Assembly: GCF_028201475.1 (NCBI RefSeq)
Contig: NZ_CP116383.1
Coordinates: 1,178,001 to 1,242,000 of the forward strand
From: Vibrio sp. SCSIO 43137
Lineage (GTDB): Bacteria > Pseudomonadota > Gammaproteobacteria > Enterobacterales > Vibrionaceae
Reading direction: 5' to 3'
DNA length: 64,000 nucleotides
Shown in pieces: positions 29,805 through 51,006 of this stretch. Within the stretch, counting starts at the first letter, position 1; the number at the start of each line of letters is the position of its first letter. The position numbers and the translations under genes were made by a program. The notes under the pieces are model-generated. The model did not search any database and was not told where the DNA came from. It saw only the letters and a program-made list of their open reading frames with translations.

Positions 29805-30837
29805 CCTCGACCTATGAAAGGCAAAGCCTGATCACACTTATACACGAGGCTCGCCAAAGCGGCTGTAGGTTGGAAAACGCATGTCACGAAGTTGAGATAG
29901 ATCTCCGAACTTACCGCCGCTGGTATCAAGATGGAGAGGTTCAGGAAGATCAACGGCCGATAGCTCCGCGACCAGTGCCAGTTAACAAGCTCACAGAGCT
30001 AGACGACAAGCCATCATCGATGTGAGCAACAACGCAGAGTACGCAAGTCTGCCACCGACTCAGATTGTACCAACGTTACTGGACAAAGGTGACTATATAG
30101 CTTCAGAGTCGAGCTTCTATCGCGTACTGAAAGCAGCAGGACAACTTAACCGCAGAGGACGCCAGCGTAGTCGACAAAAGGCATCTAGGCCAACGAGCTA
30201 CACCGCAACAGCTCCTAATCAGGTTTTTACTTGGGATATTACCTATCTCCCGTCAGGTGTCCGCGGGCAATATTATTATCTGTATGTGATAGAAGACATC
30301 TACAGCAGAAAAATCGTAGGTTACGAGGTGCATGAACGTGAATGCGGAGAGCTGGCTTCGCAGTTATTACAACGTACGCTGATGCGTGAACAGTGCTTCA
30401 ACCAGCCTCTGGTTCTGCACTCAGATAACGGTGGACCGATGAAGTCGTTTACGTTAAAAGCGAAAATGGAAGAGCTGGGGATCACACCTTCTTATAGCCG
30501 TCCAAGAGTCAGTGATGATAATCCTTATGTGGAATCGCTGTTCCGTACGCTTAAGTATGTGCCAAGCTGGCCGTCTGGCGGTTTTAATAGTCTTGAAGCA
30601 AGCCGTGTGTGGGTAGAGACCTTCGCTAACTGGTACAACACGGAACATAAGCACAGCCGATTAAACTATGTGACCCCATCGGAGCGTCACAACGGTAAAG
30701 ATATGGAAATCTTGAAGCATCGTGAAAGAGTGTTGATGGAACACCGAAGGCAAAAGCCAGAACGCTGGTCACGGAATATCAGGAACTGTGAACCGATCGG
30801 AGAAGTTCATCTGAACCCAGAAAAAGAAGTTGCTTGA
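29765..30837 (+). pseudogene. IS3-family transposase OrfB, frameshifted
   Basis: After a -1 shift at 29759-29765 the frame reads through the HTH_21-like part (SLITLIHEARQSGCRLENAC, LRTYRRWYQDGEVQ) to a stop at 30023-30025. The DDE domain resumes in another frame (30022-30837): TWDITYLPSG with the first Asp, VLHSDNGGPM with the second and VESLFRTLKY with the Glu. The natural join would read LTELDDKQAIIDVSNN; loss of 4 bases from an AAGC-type repeat near 30008-30013 would produce exactly what is seen. The transposase is therefore probably inactive. The catalytic residues themselves are intact. Confidence 0.82.
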
Positions 30838-30912: not shown

Positions 30913-31350
30913 ATTGGCCTCCGTAGGTAATTGTTTATAAATCACCACACAGAAGGTACCAATCTAAAGGGTGGTGAACTGAACGGGGTTGGTACTACCA
31001 CTACCTACGAGAGCGGCCAGCATAATGCTGCCCCGCCCAGCTCACCATAATTTTGTACAAATCGAATATAACTTCATCAATTTGCTGAAAATCAGGTATT
31101 AGAAGCTACGCAGTATCAGAATGCTAGTTCTGCTGCGCTGTAGGTAAACAGGTCGGGGTACCAATCCCGTCACTGGATTTTGCCAGTGCCGGAACAGGGT
31201 ATAAAAACATAGGCTTAGGTGCAATGGCTGTTTTGTCGGCTGGCTCGTAGCTTTACGTTTTATTGCTAGTTTCCAAAGCGAACCAGTTTGTTCGTTTTGC
31301 CCTGTGTTCTATATTAAGGGTCACAGTCGCCCCAAATTTTTCCCCATAGA
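30913..31350. other. Intergenic stretch with possible decayed coding remnants
   Basis: About 440 bases without an intact gene. It should hold the promoter of the IS-split gene (leftwards) and of the ribokinase fusion (rightwards). On the plus strand 31078-31143 encodes QFAENQVLEATQYQNASSAA then a stop. In a neighbouring frame 31143-31250 encodes GKQVGVPIPSLDFASAGTGY then KNIGLGAMAVLSAGS and a stop. These look like the tail of a decayed gene with an indel, but I cannot name it. Confidence 0.35.
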
Positions 31351-44225: not shown

Positions 44226-45479
44226 ATGACCCCTTTTAAAGCGGCAATACTGCCCGTTGCGATAGCTTCTCTGATTGGCTGTGGATCATTGTTTTCCGGT
44301 TCTGCATCTGCTCTGCCGCCTGTTAATTTTTCGATTTCGCAGGCTCAGCACAATTTGGGTATTTCTGAAGTGCCGGTTGCTCTGGCGGATCAGTTTACCG
44401 GTGAGCTGCGTTTTAACCGTTATACCTCTGTAGTGGCTCCGAACGGTAAAGCGATACATATTGTGTCGCAGGATCAACTGACCGATAACCAGATTATTCG
44501 CGCCCGCTCTGTGTTGGAGCATTATCTGACGGATTTTAAGGGGTCGAAATTTGGCAGCAACAAGAGTGCGGTGGCCAATAAAATGGCCGATAACGGTGCT
44601 GTGTTGATGTTGCTGAACGGTAGTGACGACGGCACTAACGACGCAGCAGAGCTCGAAGCTCAGCCTCTGTTTCATGATGAGATTCAGGTAGAAGGCGGCC
44701 CATGGTATATGGCTCAGAATTATGAGCACAGGGACGCCACCTTTGAAGAGATCCTGCATCTGGTGCACGACTACGGTATCGGCGTAGACGGTTACGACCA
44801 GTTTATCGGTGCGCTTCCGGCTTATCAGGCGGAGATCCGCCGTGCTCAGGTGGCCGCCCTTGACGGTAAAATCTGGGCAATGAGCTCAGAGGTGCAAGAT
44901 TGGCTGGAGGAGTTAAGGCAAGAGAACAGTTTGTCGCAAGAGTATCTAGCCTCGGTGGCGGACTCTTACTACGGGCTGTGGGGCGCGTATAAACATCAGC
45001 CTCTGCGCATGTTAGATGAGTATACCGGCGGCTGGGGCATGTGGGGTTTTTACATCGCTTCAACCCGTGAAGAGGTAGAACAGCGTGACCCGAGAGGTTA
45101 CAGGGTAATGACGGACTTTTTCCAGCCTTACCTTACTTACAATGCCCGCATTGATGAGAGTTTCAACGGCACCTTCAGCCTTAAGTTCGACAGTGAACTG
45201 TTATACACCAATCAGTCGCGTTATCTGAAGGACATTACCCTGACAGGTAATAATCCGGTAAATGTAGTGGTGAATGAGTTAGACAACAATATCAGCGGTA
45301 ATCAGGGTGAAAATACTGTGGTCTTCTCCGGTTTACGATACGAGTACGATATCCGCCGTGAGGGCGCAACGCTTGTCGTGGACGATCACCGCGCTAACCG
45401 CGATGGCGTTAACCGCTTAACCAGTATTGAGGCTCTGAGTTTTACCGATGGGGTATTGCCGATATCGGTGATTAAATAG
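44226..45479 (+). CDS. Predicted lipoprotein of unknown function
   Basis: A 417-residue exported protein. The N-terminus has a hydrophobic stretch and a lipobox LIGC with Cys19. The middle contains FEEILHLVHDYGIGVDGYDQ (near 178), a metal-site-like run of Glu and His that is not a canonical HEXXH, and many acidic residues. The C-terminal 70 residues (about 345-417) carry the NTVVFSGLRYEYDIRREG, NRLTSIEALSFTDGVLP pattern often found at the end of secreted calcium-binding and serralysin-like proteins. It follows the DUF2860 gene by 30 bases. I do not recognise the family. Confidence 0.7.
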   Translation: MTPFKAAILPVAIASLIGCGSLFSGSASALPPVNFSISQAQHNLGISEVPVALADQFTGELRFNRYTSVVAPNGKAIHIVSQDQLTDNQIIRARSVLEHYLTDFKGSKFGSNKSAVANKMADNGAVLMLLNGSDDGTNDAAELEAQPLFHDEIQVEGGPWYMAQNYEHRDATFEEILHLVHDYGIGVDGYDQFIGALPAYQAEIRRAQVAALDGKIWAMSSEVQDWLEELRQENSLSQEYLASVADSYYGLWGAYKHQPLRMLDEYTGGWGMWGFYIASTREEVEQRDPRGYRVMTDFFQPYLTYNARIDESFNGTFSLKFDSELLYTNQSRYLKDITLTGNNPVNVVVNELDNNISGNQGENTVVFSGLRYEYDIRREGATLVVDDHRANRDGVNRLTSIEALSFTDGVLPISVIK

Positions 45480-45802
45480 CTGATATTTATGACTTAACCT
45501 CAGTCATTGAGTTCTCTTATAAGGGACTGTCCTTTTAACGCTGGTCCTTTTAACGCTGTTTTAACGGGATCTTTTTTCTTAATCGGGCTGCCGGATGTGT
45601 TATCGCGGCAGCTTTTTCGTTTGTCCTAAGTCATCACCAGTAAGGATGAAAGCGTTTGAATATTCCGCCCGCTTAATTGCCCCTCAGTATCAGCATTGGG
45701 ACGCGCTTTGCTTGATCTTGACCGCCAACAGCGGCCATAGTTAAACAGGAAGAGTGCAAATGAGAGTTGTTTGCCTTTAATGTTTGTCCGGAATTTCATG
45801 TT
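45480..45802. other. Intergenic region before the sigma-54 activator gene
   Basis: No intact gene. It holds a 15-base tandem direct repeat (TCCTTTTAACGCTGG at 45530, again at 45545) and a terminator at 45587-45617. A well-placed AGGAAGAG precedes an ATG at 45760 that encodes only MRVVCL before a stop. This mini-ORF lies just before the activator start and could affect its translation. Confidence 0.5.
45587..45617 (+). terminator. Intrinsic terminator
   Basis: GCTGCCG at 45587-45593 pairs with CGGCAGC at 45606-45612 around a 12-base loop, followed by TTTTTCG. It ends the DUF2860/lipoprotein transcript. Confidence 0.75.
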
Positions 45803-47170
45803 ATGGCTGGGTCATCAATCGATAATCAGTGTGGTCGAATCAGGAAGGTATTGTGCCTTAACCTGAGCGTGCATCCGGATTTCGATTGTGAAGACGAACT
45901 GGCAAAAATCGGCTGGCAGAGTGTCTATGTCAGTTCACTGGAACAAGCCAGAGAGGCTATTGCATCCCACAAAATCTCTGTTGCTATTGTGGCCATCTGT
46001 TCTGATTCTCAACAGCGGGTTTTTAACGGTTTGACTGCTCTTATCCGCCAGCATAAAAACCTCATCTGGATTGCATTGTCTTGTGATAACAGCTTTTCTG
46101 AATACGGTCAGGTAAAGCGCAACCCCATGCTGTTTTTCGATTATCATCACTATCCTGTCGACTGGGATAAGCTGGCGCATACCCTTGGTCATGCCTACGG
46201 TATGGCAAGGTTACGGAACAAAGCCTATGCAAGGACAGAAAAACAGAGCAGCCCCAAAGCGGTGATGTCAGGCCGCTCTGCTGCGATGCAGAAACTGAAA
46301 AAGCTGCTGGAGAAGGTGGCGTCTGTGGATGCTACGGTATTGATCAACGGCGAAACTGGCTGCGGTAAAGGCTTATGCGCCCAGTGGATTCATGAAAACT
46401 CGGCTCGTGCAGATGGGCCTTTTGTTATTGTGAACAGTGCTGCTTTACCTTCTAACCTGATCCATTCAGAGCTGTTCGGATTTGAGAAGGGCGCGTTTAC
46501 CGGCGCAGCGAAACGGCATATCGGCTATCTGGAGCGGGCTGATAAGGGAACCCTGTTTTTGGATGAAATCGGCGATCTCAGCCTTGAGTCTCAGGTGAAT
46601 CTGTTGCGTTTTCTGGAAGATAACACCATAGAGAGGCTAGGCAGCGGTAGCAGAATAACAGTCGACTGCCGTATTGTATTTGCCACTCACGTAGACATTG
46701 AGCAGGCAGTAGACAGAGGCCAGTTTCGTGAAGATCTTTATCACAGGATTAATATCCTTCCCGTTCAGGTGCCGGCGTTAAGAGAACGAAGGCAGGATAT
46801 TGAACTGCTGGCCAATGATTTTCTATCCCTGTATCAGAAACAGGGGCCGGATATAACATTTTCTGATCAGGCTATTGAGGCCATGTTGAGTTACTCCTGG
46901 CCCGGTAATGTCCGCGAGCTGAAAAACCGTATCCAGAGGGCTGTGGTGCTGTGCGAGAACAGCATGATTTCTGCGGCAGATCTGGGTATCCGCTATTCGC
47001 AAAACCGAAATCCGGAAAAAAGAAGCAGCAATAAAGTTCATCTGGAAACAGAAGCCCTGCTGGCGGCCATTCAGCGCAATAACAACAATATTTCCGCCGC
47101 CGCCAGAGAGCTGCAAATCTCCCGTACCACTCTCTATAAACTGGTCAGAAAGTGCAATATTAAGATCTGA
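45803..47170 (+). CDS. Sigma-54-dependent transcriptional activator with degenerate receiver
   Basis: A bacterial enhancer-binding protein, about 455 residues from the ATG at 45803 (the frame is open from a TTG at 45767). Residues about 15-130 resemble a response-regulator receiver but lack a clear phosphoacceptor pocket. The AAA+ domain follows: Walker A GETGCGKG near 200, the sigma-54 contact loop [10 protein letters not shown] near 235, Walker [11 protein letters not shown] near 258, an arginine-finger region and [16 protein letters not shown] Fis-type helix-turn-helix closes it ([20 protein letters not shown]). The intact GAFTGA means it can activate sigma-54 polymerase. Its likely target is the next gene, which has a -24/-12 promoter and three repeated boxes. 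The layout recalls VpsR, but I cannot claim orthology. Confidence 0.92.
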
Positions 47171-47268
47171 CTGTTCACGCTTAACAGATCCCTTGTTCAA
47201 CTGTTCACTCTTGTTACTCTTTGATTGTTATGAGCTTTTTCTGTGTTTGCACGATAAAAACTGTTCAC
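47170..47268 (+). promoter_or_regulatory. Three ACTGTTCAC boxes, candidate enhancer
   Basis: ACTGTTCAC occurs at 47170-47178, 47200-47208 and 47260-47268, spaced exactly 30 and 60 bases, close to whole helical turns, so all face the same side. The first overlaps the activator stop codon. The last ends 58 bases before the -24 element. This is the usual position for enhancer-binding protein sites. Confidence 0.75.
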
Positions 47269-47326
47269 CTTATCTTCTTTAGCAAATCAATTTCTTTAAC
47301 GTATTGTTTATAAAGAGAAAAATATC

Positions 47327-47342
47327 TGGCCTGTCTTTTGCT
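47327..47342 (+). promoter_or_regulatory. Sigma-54 (-24/-12) promoter
   Basis: TGGCCTGTCTTTTGCT matches the consensus TGGCAC-N5-TTGCW at the essential GG and GC with the correct spacing (TGGC at 47327-47330, TTGC at 47338-47341). Transcription should begin near 47353, about 105 bases before the start codon of the secreted protein. Confidence 0.8.
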
Positions 47343-47457
47343 CTATTCCTGCATTGTTGCGGTGGCTACTGCTCAGCAGCAAAGAATAAACGGAATAATG
47401 ATTACCGGTTTGCTGGCTTCAGTGATGTTGTCTGGTGAAAGGATGAGGAGATTTATT

Positions 47458-49095
47458 ATGCAAATTTGCAGTATTGAACAGGCTTTGAAAGTCTTCTTTC
47501 TTAGCTTGCTACTGGCACTGTTCAGCCCGCTGGCGTCAGCGGTGCACGATGACGGCGCGTTTGAACTGGATGGCAATCCGGCAGCCGAAGAAGAGGTGGA
47601 AGGTGATGACTGGGATCAGCTTAGTAATGCCGTTGAATTTACCGGGATTATTGCTGACCCGTCACCTGTCTCTATTTTTACCGGCGGACGCAAGGATATT
47701 CAGGACATTCCGCAATGGTCTCATAAGCATGGTTCGGTGCCGGATAAGGATGATCTGACGAATGCTTACGCGGCAGCTTATGCGGTGCCAAGTGATGCTG
47801 ACCCTGAAGTGAATGATTTAGTGATTTACTTTGGTGCAGACCGCTTCGCAAATACCGGTGATGCCTTTATGGGCTTCTGGTTCTTCCAGTCTCAGGTTGT
47901 GGCAATGGAAGATGGCTCGTTCTCCGGTCAGCATGTAAAAGACGACACCCTTGTGTTGGTGGATTACCCGCAGGGCGCCAACGAGGATCCTTATATCGCA
48001 GTGATTGTCTGGGACACTACCTGCAGCAAGGCGGCCAGTAATGATCCTTCCCCCGGTGATTGCGCCGCTAAAAACTTAAGGATGAAAGCTGAATCAGACG
48101 ATGGTAGTGACGCCGCTAACTGTGCCTTTGCCGCAGATGACGACCATGTATGCGCTATTACTAATGCCGATGAAGAGCCTGCCCCTTGGATTTATACGCC
48201 TAAAGCAGGCGTTTCTGGTACCTTCCCTATTGAGAGCTTCTATGAAGGTGGTATTAACTTAACTCAGTTGGTAGGTAATGCCTGTTTCAGCAGCTTTATG
48301 GCTGAAACCCGCTCTTCAAGCTCTTTTACCGCTTCGCTGAAAGACTTTGTATTGAAGGATTTTGAGTTGTGCGATCTTGAGATAGTGAAAACCTGTCCGA
48401 CCGGTACTCTGACGCCAGACGGGGATATGATCATTTATGACTACTCAATTACCGTAACCAATACTGGATTTGGTGCCCTGCATGATATCGAAGTTATAGA
48501 TGTCACTGCCGGTGAGCAAACTCCGGTTGGTAACTATATATTTGATGTCGGAACCTTAAATGCTGGTGAGTCGGAAGTCGTTTCTGGTTCATTTAAAACC
48601 CTGACTAGTTCTATTCTGAACAAAGCGACGGTAACGGCTGCACTTGTGCCGGGTGGTGAGACTAAAGTGAGTAAAGAGAGTACAGCAACTTGTCCCGGCT
48701 TCTCTGTTCCCGGCAAACTGAATGTCACTAAAGAGTGTGATGTTGTCGTTGCTGATGTGGGCGGGGCCTATGGGTTGAAAGTAAACTATAACGGTATGGT
48801 TTGTAATGACTCTGCCGTTAAGATCCTTGATGTGACTCTCTTTGAAGAGCATGACGGTATTGTTGTTCCACTTGGTAATATTGGTGACTTAGCGCCGGGA
48901 AGCTGTAAAAACTATGCTGATAGCTATGTACCTGCACCTATGGGGGCAGAGGTCGATGGTGAGGTTTCTTCTGCTAACCTGAGAACCTTCTCTGACACCA
49001 TTCAGGCCTTTGGTACAACGGCGATATTTAATGATGATGTAGAATCAATGGTGGTTGAGGCAAGTTGCGACTTATGTCCTGCACCTGAACTCTGA
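47458..49095 (+). CDS. Secreted protein of unknown function with DUF11-like repeats
   Basis: A 545-residue exported protein. The ATG at 47458 follows GAGGAGA; the upstream in-frame codons lack a ribosome site. The signal peptide (about 1-30) ends PLASAVHDDG. The first half has the FELDGNPAAEEEVEGDDWDQ, KDIQDIPQWSHKHGSVPDKD and LVIYFGADRFANTGDAFMGF blocks seen in a widespread group of uncharacterised surface proteins. The second half has Cys-bearing immunoglobulin-like repeats (LEIVKTCPTGTLTPDGDMI, NVTKECDVVVADVGGAYGLK) of DUF11 type. A sigma-54 promoter and the neighbouring activator should control it. It may be a surface or matrix protein. Confidence 0.82.
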   Translation: MQICSIEQALKVFFLSLLLALFSPLASAVHDDGAFELDGNPAAEEEVEGDDWDQLSNAVEFTGIIADPSPVSIFTGGRKDIQDIPQWSHKHGSVPDKDDLTNAYAAAYAVPSDADPEVNDLVIYFGADRFANTGDAFMGFWFFQSQVVAMEDGSFSGQHVKDDTLVLVDYPQGANEDPYIAVIVWDTTCSKAASNDPSPGDCAAKNLRMKAESDDGSDAANCAFAADDDHVCAITNADEEPAPWIYTPKAGVSGTFPIESFYEGGINLTQLVGNACFSSFMAETRSSSSFTASLKDFVLKDFELCDLEIVKTCPTGTLTPDGDMIIYDYSITVTNTGFGALHDIEVIDVTAGEQTPVGNYIFDVGTLNAGESEVVSGSFKTLTSSILNKATVTAALVPGGETKVSKESTATCPGFSVPGKLNVTKECDVVVADVGGAYGLKVNYNGMVCNDSAVKILDVTLFEEHDGIVVPLGNIGDLAPGSCKNYADSYVPAPMGAEVDGEVSSANLRTFSDTIQAFGTTAIFNDDVESMVVEASCDLCPAPEL

Positions 49096-49185: not shown

Positions 49186-51006
49186 TTAGCGTTTCTTACC
49201 TTTACCGCCTTTGGTGCTGTCACTGTCGCTTCCGTCATCGCTGCCACTATCTGAGCCGCCATCTGAACCTGAGCTCTCTTGTAATGTGATGGTAACCGTT
49301 GCGCTGGATGTCGATGTGCCGTCGCTGATGGTATAGCTGAAACTATCAGTTGTTTTAAATCGTTTGCCCGGTGTATAGCGGAAAGTTCCGTCACTCAGCA
49401 GGGTGACGCTGCCTTTGTTACCCTGAGTAAAGCCAGTAACTGATACCAGTTCAGGCTGTGGCATTATGTCGTTTACCAGTACGTCGAACTCAACAGCGGT
49501 TTTAGAGCTGATAATAATGCTGTCATTTTGTGCCACCGGTGGTGCTGCCTGTACTTCAGTAACCGTATAGCTGTTGCTGGTTTGTGTGGTGGACGACTGT
49601 TCAACATGATAAACCGTGAAGTCCAGGTTGTACTCTCCGGCAGTCGCACTGTCTGTTGAGGTGACATCAATAGTCACTTGTGCCGTTGCACCTGACGCCA
49701 GCGATACTGAGTCACTGGTAGATACCCAACCAGACGGAGTGTTGGCCTGAAGGTCAAAGGTGGCTGCGGAGCAGTTTGCACTGTTGTTATTGGTGATGTT
49801 TACGTTGTAACTCAGGGTTTGTCCTGCTGCTGCTTCCGTTCCGTTTACTGCAGATGAAGAAAGCGTCGGTGCGTGATAGGTACAAGTGTTATTGCTGCCA
49901 AAGTTAACCTCAACTTCCGCAACGCCGTTAGCGGCGCTGACAAGGCTGAAGGTTACGCCGGAAAGAGGGTCGGTGTAGCTGCTGCCTACCTTCATCGCCG
50001 GGTCTTTCCAGTCATTACGGCCATAAATCTCTTTATACTGTGAGTTAGTGTTCATATGTAGCAGATAGCTGCTGTCTGCATCGCCTTCATTTGCCATACG
50101 TACCACGATACCGTCGGTAACGTCTTCGCGGAAAGAGGTGTAAGAACGCTCTGCAAGAAAATCATCGAAGCCGACAGCTTGTCTGTACTCGATATAGAAG
50201 AAGCTTGGCAGGCCTGATTCAGGGTCTGTTCCTCTCGGGATTTTAATCGCAACAGGCTGCTGGCTGTCTGTAGATTCGTACTGAACGATAGGGTAGATAC
50301 CGCTGTTGCTTACCTGATTAACGGCAGTGGCGTGTTCGCCGTTCAGCCAGCCCATCTGCTCTTTCTGAAAGGTGTTGAAATAGCCGATATCATCTTTACC
50401 CATTACATCATAGGTGTCGCCATACTCTTTATGAGTGCAGTTACTCGCCAGTGTAACGTCTCCGCAGTCCAGAGCGTGTGAGTGGAAAAGACCAAAGTTG
50501 TGGCCAAGCTCGTGGGCAATCAGGCGTGAAGTAAATACGCCGTTGATATAGGAGCGGGAAGGAGTTCCGTCCATTGTCGCCATGCCTTCTTCCAGACAAG
50601 CAGTTTGAGTCATCAGATAGACGATGCGCTGGTAGTTTTCCAGAACCACGCCGTCAGCAATGGCGGCGTTATCGGCGGCAACCTGTACGGCACCATAATT
50701 GCACTCCTGATTTGACAGCGGCAATGTGTACCAGCCGGCAGTCTGCCCAGCCAGCCATGTCTGGCCGTAGGAACCCTGCTGATAAAACTGGTTTACTTCG
50801 CCAAACACAAGGTCATTTGCCTGAGTCGCTGAAATAGGGTTTTCGTTCGGGTTTTCCTGAAAGTTAACCAGAATAACCAGCGTAGATTGCTCTCCTGTGG
50901 TTGACGGAGTTGCCAGAACAGCAGCAGAAAGAGCGATAGAGCCGATTAAAAAACAGTTAGCTATCTTAGAAAGGGTAGAAAGGAGCCGGGTGCGGATAGT
51001 TGCCAT
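49186..51006 (-). CDS. Secreted zinc metalloprotease, M11/gametolysin-like
   Basis: A 606-residue exported protease. After a signal peptide (about 1-33, ending AVLATPSTTG) comes a catalytic domain with the metzincin site AHELGHNFGLFHSH (near 166-179: HExxHxxGxxH) and a Met-turn in DTYDVMGKDD (near 205), as in peptidase family M11. Downstream are a NEW3-like beta domain (about 365-480), a cadherin-like tandem domain with VAQNDSIIISSKTAVEFDVL and FSYTISDGTSTSSATVTITL, and a Ser/Gly/Asp-rich tail ending KGGKGKKR. The basic end is unusual for a secreted Vibrio protease. It is a monocistronic minus-strand gene. Confidence 0.9.
   Translation of the reverse strand: MATIRTRLLSTLSKIANCFLIGSIALSAAVLATPSTTGEQSTLVILVNFQENPNENPISATQANDLVFGEVNQFYQQGSYGQTWLAGQTAGWYTLPLSNQECNYGAVQVAADNAAIADGVVLENYQRIVYLMTQTACLEEGMATMDGTPSRSYINGVFTSRLIAHELGHNFGLFHSHALDCGDVTLASNCTHKEYGDTYDVMGKDDIGYFNTFQKEQMGWLNGEHATAVNQVSNSGIYPIVQYESTDSQQPVAIKIPRGTDPESGLPSFFYIEYRQAVGFDDFLAERSYTSFREDVTDGIVVRMANEGDADSSYLLHMNTNSQYKEIYGRNDWKDPAMKVGSSYTDPLSGVTFSLVSAANGVAEVEVNFGSNNTCTYHAPTLSSSAVNGTEAAAGQTLSYNVNITNNNSANCSAATFDLQANTPSGWVSTSDSVSLASGATAQVTIDVTSTDSATAGEYNLDFTVYHVEQSSTTQTSNSYTVTEVQAAPPVAQNDSIIISSKTAVEFDVLVNDIMPQPELVSVTGFTQGNKGSVTLLSDGTFRYTPGKRFKTTDSFSYTISDGTSTSSATVTITLQESSGSDGGSDSGSDDGSDSDSTKGGKGKKR

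Follow-up and report, generated by a model that had tools for sequence, protein, structure and literature searches.

Gene organization of the locus

We analysed a 64,000-nucleotide stretch of the Vibrio sp. SCSIO 43137 genome (contig NZ_CP116383.1, positions 1,178,001 to 1,242,000; hereafter the window), in which the gene of a sigma-54 activator is followed by that of a secreted protein, with a protease gene converging on the latter (Table 1). A sequence-only reading of this DNA had described the activator, three upstream boxes, a -24/-12 promoter and the secreted protein as a self-contained sigma-54 switch for a surface protein, possibly responding to cyclic di-GMP (c-di-GMP). Each of these elements was found at the position given there. 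The description as self-contained is not supported in that form: the convergent metzincin, missing from that reading, ends only 90 bases past the secreted gene and belongs to the unit, and many relatives add a dedicated type II secretion cluster. It is further weakened by some Vibrio genomes that keep the secreted gene without an adjoining activator homologue.

Table 1 Features of the activator, secreted protein and protease locus (window coordinates).
Feature	Position	Strand	Remarks
VpsR-type sigma-54 activator	45803..47170	+	degenerate receiver, AAA+ with GAFTGA, Fis-type helix-turn-helix; Pfam
Candidate activator box 1, ACTGTTCAC	47170..47178	+	exact match; TGT core starts 155 bases before TGGC
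Candidate activator box 2, ACTGTTCAC	47200..47208	+	exact match, 30 bases past box 1
Candidate activator box 3, ACTGTTCAC	47260..47268	+	exact match, 60 bases past box 2; TGT core 65 bases before TGGC
IHF-like sequence, AATCAATTTCTTT	47285..47297	+	42 bases before TGGC; one consensus base missed
-24/-12 sigma-54 promoter, TGGCCTGTCTTTTGC	47327..47341	+	predicted +1 near 47353
Secreted protein	47458..49095	+	signal peptide, beta-rich N-terminal region, two Ig-like C-terminal domains (DUF7507/DUF11)
Secreted metzincin-type protease	49186..51006	-	HELGHNFGLFH, NEW3 and Big_9 domains, basic Gly/Lys tail

The open reading frame (ORF) of the secreted protein opens at 47338, and ATG 47458 is the better start (545 aa) because of a signal peptide ending in ASA, read by eye, and because the database copy P0001 begins there. 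The product had been called DUF11-like; it reaches 33.9 bits for DUF7507 (cut-off 27) and 22.9 bits for DUF11, under the cut-off of 24.6. Its conserved beta-rich N-terminal region has no Pfam match, and the protein as a whole has no NCBIfam match. A family search returned 831 relatives among 7999 scored candidates (the best 120 of the 831 are listed), and a scan of one genome per species provided the 45 named loci used below, several of which are cut by contig ends. A second secreted family of the DUF7507/DUF11 type recurs in loci L018, L019, L026 and L087 (L087 by eye); a sigma-54-like sequence, scored with no chance control, lies upstream in three of these four.

A VpsR-type activator with an intact GAFTGA loop

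The activator ORF (45767-47170, start ATG 45803) matches PF00158 (Sigma54_activat) with 218 bits, the VpsR domain PF20161 with 42.2 bits (curated cut-off 23.7 bits) and PF02954 (HTH_8) with 38.5 bits. The intact GAFTGA loop claimed earlier was borne out when read in the alignment, and together with the AAA+ sigma-54 domain it identifies the protein as a sigma-54 enhancer-binding protein. All 23 linked activators that show the loop have the form G(A/S)FT(G/S/N/D)A, and all nine that were scanned exceed the PF20161 cut-off (39-55 bits). The host's own VpsR lacks the loop.

The two proteins also differ at the phospho-Asp position, which reads AIVAIC in the activator versus GIVDLS in VpsR, where the Asp is kept. 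The receiver had been said to lack a clear phosphorylation site, and this holds beyond the window: Ala occupies the Asp column here, and none of the 20 readable linked activators (19 distinct) has Asp, so that the receiver is not that of a phosphorylated response regulator. The best NCBIfam match is the PEP-CTERM regulator PrsR (TIGR02915, 347.9 bits), below the equivalog cut-off of 502.6; this match begins only at residue 108 and so leaves most of the receiver outside the part in common with PrsR.

In 19 of the 45 loci an activator homologue is found no more than 6 kb from the secreted gene. The secreted gene is present in 8 of 41 genomes, the host's own included, and a second VpsR-like protein scoring above 40 bits occurs in 4 of these 8 and in none of the 33 others. 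Upstream of the activator itself, TGGGACGCGCTTTGCT at 45697-45712 scores p = 0.03 as a sigma-54 promoter; none of 19 other activator upstream regions scores so.

Sigma-54 promoters recur in the secreted-protein family

The TGGC-N7-TTGC promoter is present as claimed. Scored with weights that follow the sigma-54 consensus, the window copy reaches p = 0.025 against dinucleotide shuffles. With 200 dinucleotide shuffles each, 33 of the 67 secreted-family genes for which 300 upstream bases were available reach a -24/-12 score at p<=0.05; the genes are related and some are near-duplicates, and the combined p of 1e-28 is therefore no true probability. The same scorer with 100 shuffles picked out 0 of 13 gspE upstream regions and 1 of 20 activator upstream regions (a set that includes host VpsR, one other regulator and one duplicate), the one being that of the window's own activator. 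The recurrence of the TGGC-N7-TTGC frame in relatives is stronger evidence for the predicted promoter than the window copy alone and, with the intact GAFTGA loop and the nearby activator homologues, supports the proposed sigma-54 switch for the secreted protein.

An element of the form [AT]ATCA[AT]N4TT[AG], which we take to resemble a site for integration host factor (IHF), starts 17-19 bases ahead of TGGC in 17 of 64 regions (mean 0.56 and maximum 5 in 50 shuffles). The IHF-like stretch of the window fails this strict pattern and is not among the 17. The leaders of the Pseudomonas secreted genes carry a 7-pair hairpin starting 3-5 bases past the predicted sigma-54 start; the consensus of 14 leaders has 12 pairs, 7 of them with two-sided change, and broken cells number 7 of 165.

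Boxes upstream of the promoter

The three ACTGTTCAC boxes are exact and stand at the 30- and 60-base steps described before, box 1 overlapping the last base of the activator stop codon. Single 9-mers of this type are not rare: 23 places in the 64 kb match with at most one mismatch against 14.8 expected, the observed 23 being reached by 4 of 100 shuffles, and of the six exact copies in the window three lie away from the secreted-gene promoter. The arrangement fared well in a genome scan for further boxes, in which two exact copies with 15-25 bases between them were found once in the 4.94-Mb genome (reversed-pattern control 0). The composite CTGTNNAC-N40-70-TGGC-N7-TTGC occurs three times in the genome, with a reversed control of 0.

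Conservation of the boxes in relatives, whose absence would count against the earlier reading, was seen as an enrichment of the core and not for the full 9-mer, and in the Vibrio/Alteromonadales set only. The exact 9-mer recurs upstream of a single V. diabolicus gene among 17 other regions of this set. The CTGTNNAC core is enriched, with 21 occurrences in 18 regions, three of them the window's, versus 2.1+-1.4 in shuffled sequence (maximum 7). In V. albus, where the gene order is the same, two copies of CTGTAAAC and also CTGTACAC are present, and V. superstes has five tandem copies of CTGTAAAC at an 8-base step. A pattern-free repeat scan of 23 similar regions ranked ACANNNTGT and TGTNACA at the top.

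A convergent metzincin and a type II secretion cluster

The metzincin zinc motif HExxHxxGxxH is intact in the window protease and in 33 of 41 protease-family ORFs, the other eight being seven cut ones and that of V. albus with one change. The proteases have a signal and Ig-like domains of their own. The protease is present within 6 kb of the secreted gene in 33 of the 45 loci and type II secretion genes in 14; two loci have none of protease, activator or type II secretion genes. A glycine-rich basic tail (GKGKNK, GKGNGKNR and similar), perhaps a retention or export signal, closes many proteases of the family. At L087, a Pseudoalteromonas locus, a second protease of the family stands opposite a different DUF11-type protein, behind which come a DsbA-like gene (by eye) and the activator; a sigma-54-like sequence, again scored with no chance control, lies upstream of this second DUF11-type protein.

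A gspE gene was found upstream, in the same orientation, in 13 of 16 chosen genomes, at 3-9 kb past the fetched locus and, by our reckoning, about 9-10 kb before the first secreted gene; overlap confirmed the contiguity of this stretch with the locus in 13 of 13 cases. No upstream gspE was found at L013, L016 and L024. The cluster of L067 comprises GspE, GspF, GspH, other N_methyl pseudopilins, GspK, a PilN-like protein, GspM of subtype b and GspD. No secretin lies beside the window in the host, and the one GspD-size secretin found elsewhere in its genome adjoins a gspE. A relation to the MshEN class of c-di-GMP-binding secretion ATPases was sought through the strict motif RLGxx...LxxxLxxQ (PMC5013675), which is absent from all 14 GspE ORFs searched, one of them the host's own and one N-terminally short.

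Riboswitches for c-di-GMP precede many of the relative protease genes

Rfam models identified 17 c-di-GMP aptamers in the 45 loci, eight of c-di-GMP-I (RF01051) and nine of c-di-GMP-I-GGC (RF03167). All 17 lie directly upstream of a protease of the metzincin family and of no other gene in the scanned loci; they precede 17 of the 32 relative proteases with a visible 5' side (out of the 41 protease ORFs; the window protease is not among the 32). The bearers belong to Pseudomonas, Marinobacterium, Tolumonas, Pseudoalteromonas and a Desulfobacteraceae genome. At the position where the GGC model, as the name of the variant implies, has G, every one of the 17 has A, so they look like ordinary c-di-GMP aptamers.

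The association extends beyond these loci. A whole-genome search of 14 genomes, chosen for having a protease aptamer and with 150 candidates per genome scored, gave a lower bound of at least 30 aptamers, 23 of which precede a protease of the metzincin family. By coordinates, 16 of the 30 are those already found at the loci; 7 of the 14 others also precede such a protease, and at 6 of these 7 further places an activator homologue is next door. In nine Pseudomonas genomes, chosen for the module, 14 of at least 15 c-di-GMP-I riboswitches precede the protease family. In the host genome (L064, C1:1979119) the only c-di-GMP-I riboswitch found precedes a 198-aa ORF, presumably TfoX/TfoY.

The P1-forming strand of the aptamers has an alternative partner, a downstream stretch by which the ribosome site is masked when this pairing does not form. 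We folded 16 leaders at equilibrium, L016 being excluded for want of a clear start. Forcing P1 closed the ribosome site (unpaired 0.00-0.17), and forcing the alternative left it more open (0.14-0.65) in 14 of the 16; in 9 of these 14 the alternative is the expected anti-sequestering helix (unpaired 0.32-0.65). The folding model thus predicts a soft OFF direction in 14 of 16 leaders, clear in nine. The protease leaders of L013, L052 and, less clearly, the window look alike by eye (GGAT..TTGGT...AGGTAA before the start codon); this likeness has no Rfam match in the window leader.

Other features of the window

Directly upstream of the activator, 44226-45479 encodes a 417-aa secreted-looking protein with no Pfam match. 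At 30967-31052 on the minus strand lies an Rfam C4 antisense RNA (67 bits), near an ORF with an rve integrase core (30022-30837).

A proposed mechanism and its alternatives

Based on these results, we propose that the activator would bind the CTGTNNAC-type boxes and that, by means of its GAFTGA loop, it would open the sigma-54 promoter at 47327, so that the secreted DUF7507/DUF11 protein would be switched on. The likeliest signal to the activator would be c-di-GMP, because the activator has no phospho-Asp and a VpsR-type receiver; the riboswitches at the partner protease in other lineages lend indirect support to this guess of the sequence-only reading. The protein would be exported by type II secretion, presumably through the general system in Vibrio and through the dedicated adjoining one in Pseudomonas, Oceanospirillales and Zobellella/Oceanisphaera relatives. 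The convergent metzincin may act as the off-arm, releasing or remodelling the secreted protein at the surface. In many relatives the c-di-GMP-I riboswitch would shut the protease off at high c-di-GMP, so that the two arms would move in opposite directions. We lean slightly towards this reading, in which c-di-GMP would switch on the exported protein by way of a VpsR-type sigma-54 activator and, across many lineages, switch off the partner protease.

Several observations weigh against it. On the side of the protease, neither the window nor any Vibrio locus has a c-di-GMP-I riboswitch at the Rfam gathering score, and 15 of the 32 relative proteases have none. The folding is weak evidence in 5 of 16 leaders, where the helix forced as the alternative forms between the flank and the ribosome site itself (0.14-0.17); forcing changed nothing in two Pseudoalteromonas leaders, and the alternative duplex beats shuffles at p<=0.05 in only 4 of 16. 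On the side of the activator, the CTGTNNAC pattern, chosen after the sequences were viewed, is not enriched in Pseudomonas (1 versus 1.1 shuffled, 20 regions), in Aeromonas/Tolumonas (0 versus 0.3, 4 regions) or in the Oceanospirillales-type set (4 versus 1.6, 18 regions). Two deltaproteobacterial genes (L023 and L028) have no sigma-54-like promoter (p = 0.985 and 1.0), and the loop reads GAFTSA, GAFTNA or GAFTDA in V. albus, V. gelatinilyticus and Aeromonas. Finally, no activator homologue adjoins the secreted gene in the Vibrio relatives G007 and G010 or in the genomes of L021, L022 and L029, where little VpsR-domain sequence other than that of VpsR is present; the gene must therefore depend on another activator in these cases. 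More widely, a PF20161 match is present in 18 of 18 genomes searched, 17 of them from loci without an activator within 6 kb (L052 not included); it exceeds the cut-off in 16, of which three show mainly VpsR itself.

The most serious alternative keeps the sigma-54 switch and has the activator respond to a partner protein or another ligand, c-di-GMP acting only through the riboswitch where one is present. The PF20161 scores of the nine linked activators, far under the 169.8 bits of host VpsR, would fit this view, as would the riboswitch-free Vibrio loci. Speaking for c-di-GMP are the receiver family shared with VpsR, described as a c-di-GMP binder (PMC12564702), the missing phospho-Asp, and the activator homologue beside a riboswitch-controlled protease in 6 of the 7 further places. 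We consider this alternative possible but rather doubtful. At the opposite end, the likeness of the promoter and boxes to such sites could be fortuitous and an ordinary promoter could drive the secreted gene, given that single boxes are common in the window and that its -24/-12 sequence taken alone is modest; the family-wide promoters, the negative controls at gspE and activator genes and the uniqueness of the box pair in the genome make this very improbable.

The role of the protease is a separate matter. It might mature or process the secreted protein, or degrade an outside protein, rather than release a surface layer, the pairing then reflecting co-inheritance. In favour of this view, the proteases have a signal and Ig-like domains of their own, and cleavage of the secreted protein is itself conjectural. 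However, under the predicted OFF riboswitch a maturation enzyme would be missing at the very time at which the VpsR-type activator is expected to be active, and the pairing recurs in gamma- and deltaproteobacteria, also with the second, different DUF11-type protein. We regard this alternative, too, as possible but rather doubtful. Overall, the observation behind the sequence-only reading is confirmed, and its interpretation is partly supported.

Comparison with known systems

VpsR of Vibrio cholerae is described as binding c-di-GMP (PMC12564702), as regulating matrix and type II secretion genes (PMC12564702, PMC9303241) and as acting with sigma-70 or independently of RpoN (PMC9303241, PMC5552954). 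The window activator shares its architecture of a receiver-like VpsR domain, AAA+ domain and Fis-type helix-turn-helix, and differs in having GAFTGA and no Asp, the reverse of what we found in the host's own VpsR. For the combination of RpoN and c-di-GMP, a precedent is reported in BerB of Burkholderia cenocepacia, an enhancer-binding protein that uses both to activate a biofilm regulator gene (PMC5552954); BerB is said to have no N-terminal input domain, unlike the window activator with its VpsR-type one.

The closest functional parallel, without homology, appears to be that of Clostridioides difficile, in which the surface protein CD2831 is reported to go up with c-di-GMP and the metalloprotease ZmpI/PPEP-1, under a class I riboswitch, to go down (PMC6366702). 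The protein arm there uses a class II riboswitch, as opposed to a sigma-54 activator here, and the window combines DUF7507/DUF11 with an HExxHxxGxxH metzincin and probably with type II export. By analogy, the window module would work like CD2831/PPEP-1, and we do not file it as a member of that system.

Taken together, we tentatively suggest, with somewhat less than even confidence, a c-di-GMP module of gamma- and some deltaproteobacteria in which DUF7507/DUF11 secreted proteins would be switched on by a sigma-54-competent VpsR subfamily, exported through a dedicated type II secretion system and shed by a convergent metzincin under c-di-GMP-I riboswitch-OFF control. It would be the Gram-negative counterpart, assembled independently, of the C. 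difficile adhesin/PPEP-1 switch, with the window as its riboswitch-free Vibrio form. Such a module is not described in the titles or abstract openings found in the open PMC literature, which was the scope of our search. These results connect an uncharacterised, widespread secreted family, in one readable unit, with sigma-54 and type II secretion, with a partner protease and, among the relatives, with c-di-GMP. In the Pseudomonas genomes with the module, serving it would be a main job of the c-di-GMP-I riboswitch class, and the gene pair may set the moment at which cells keep or shed a surface layer.

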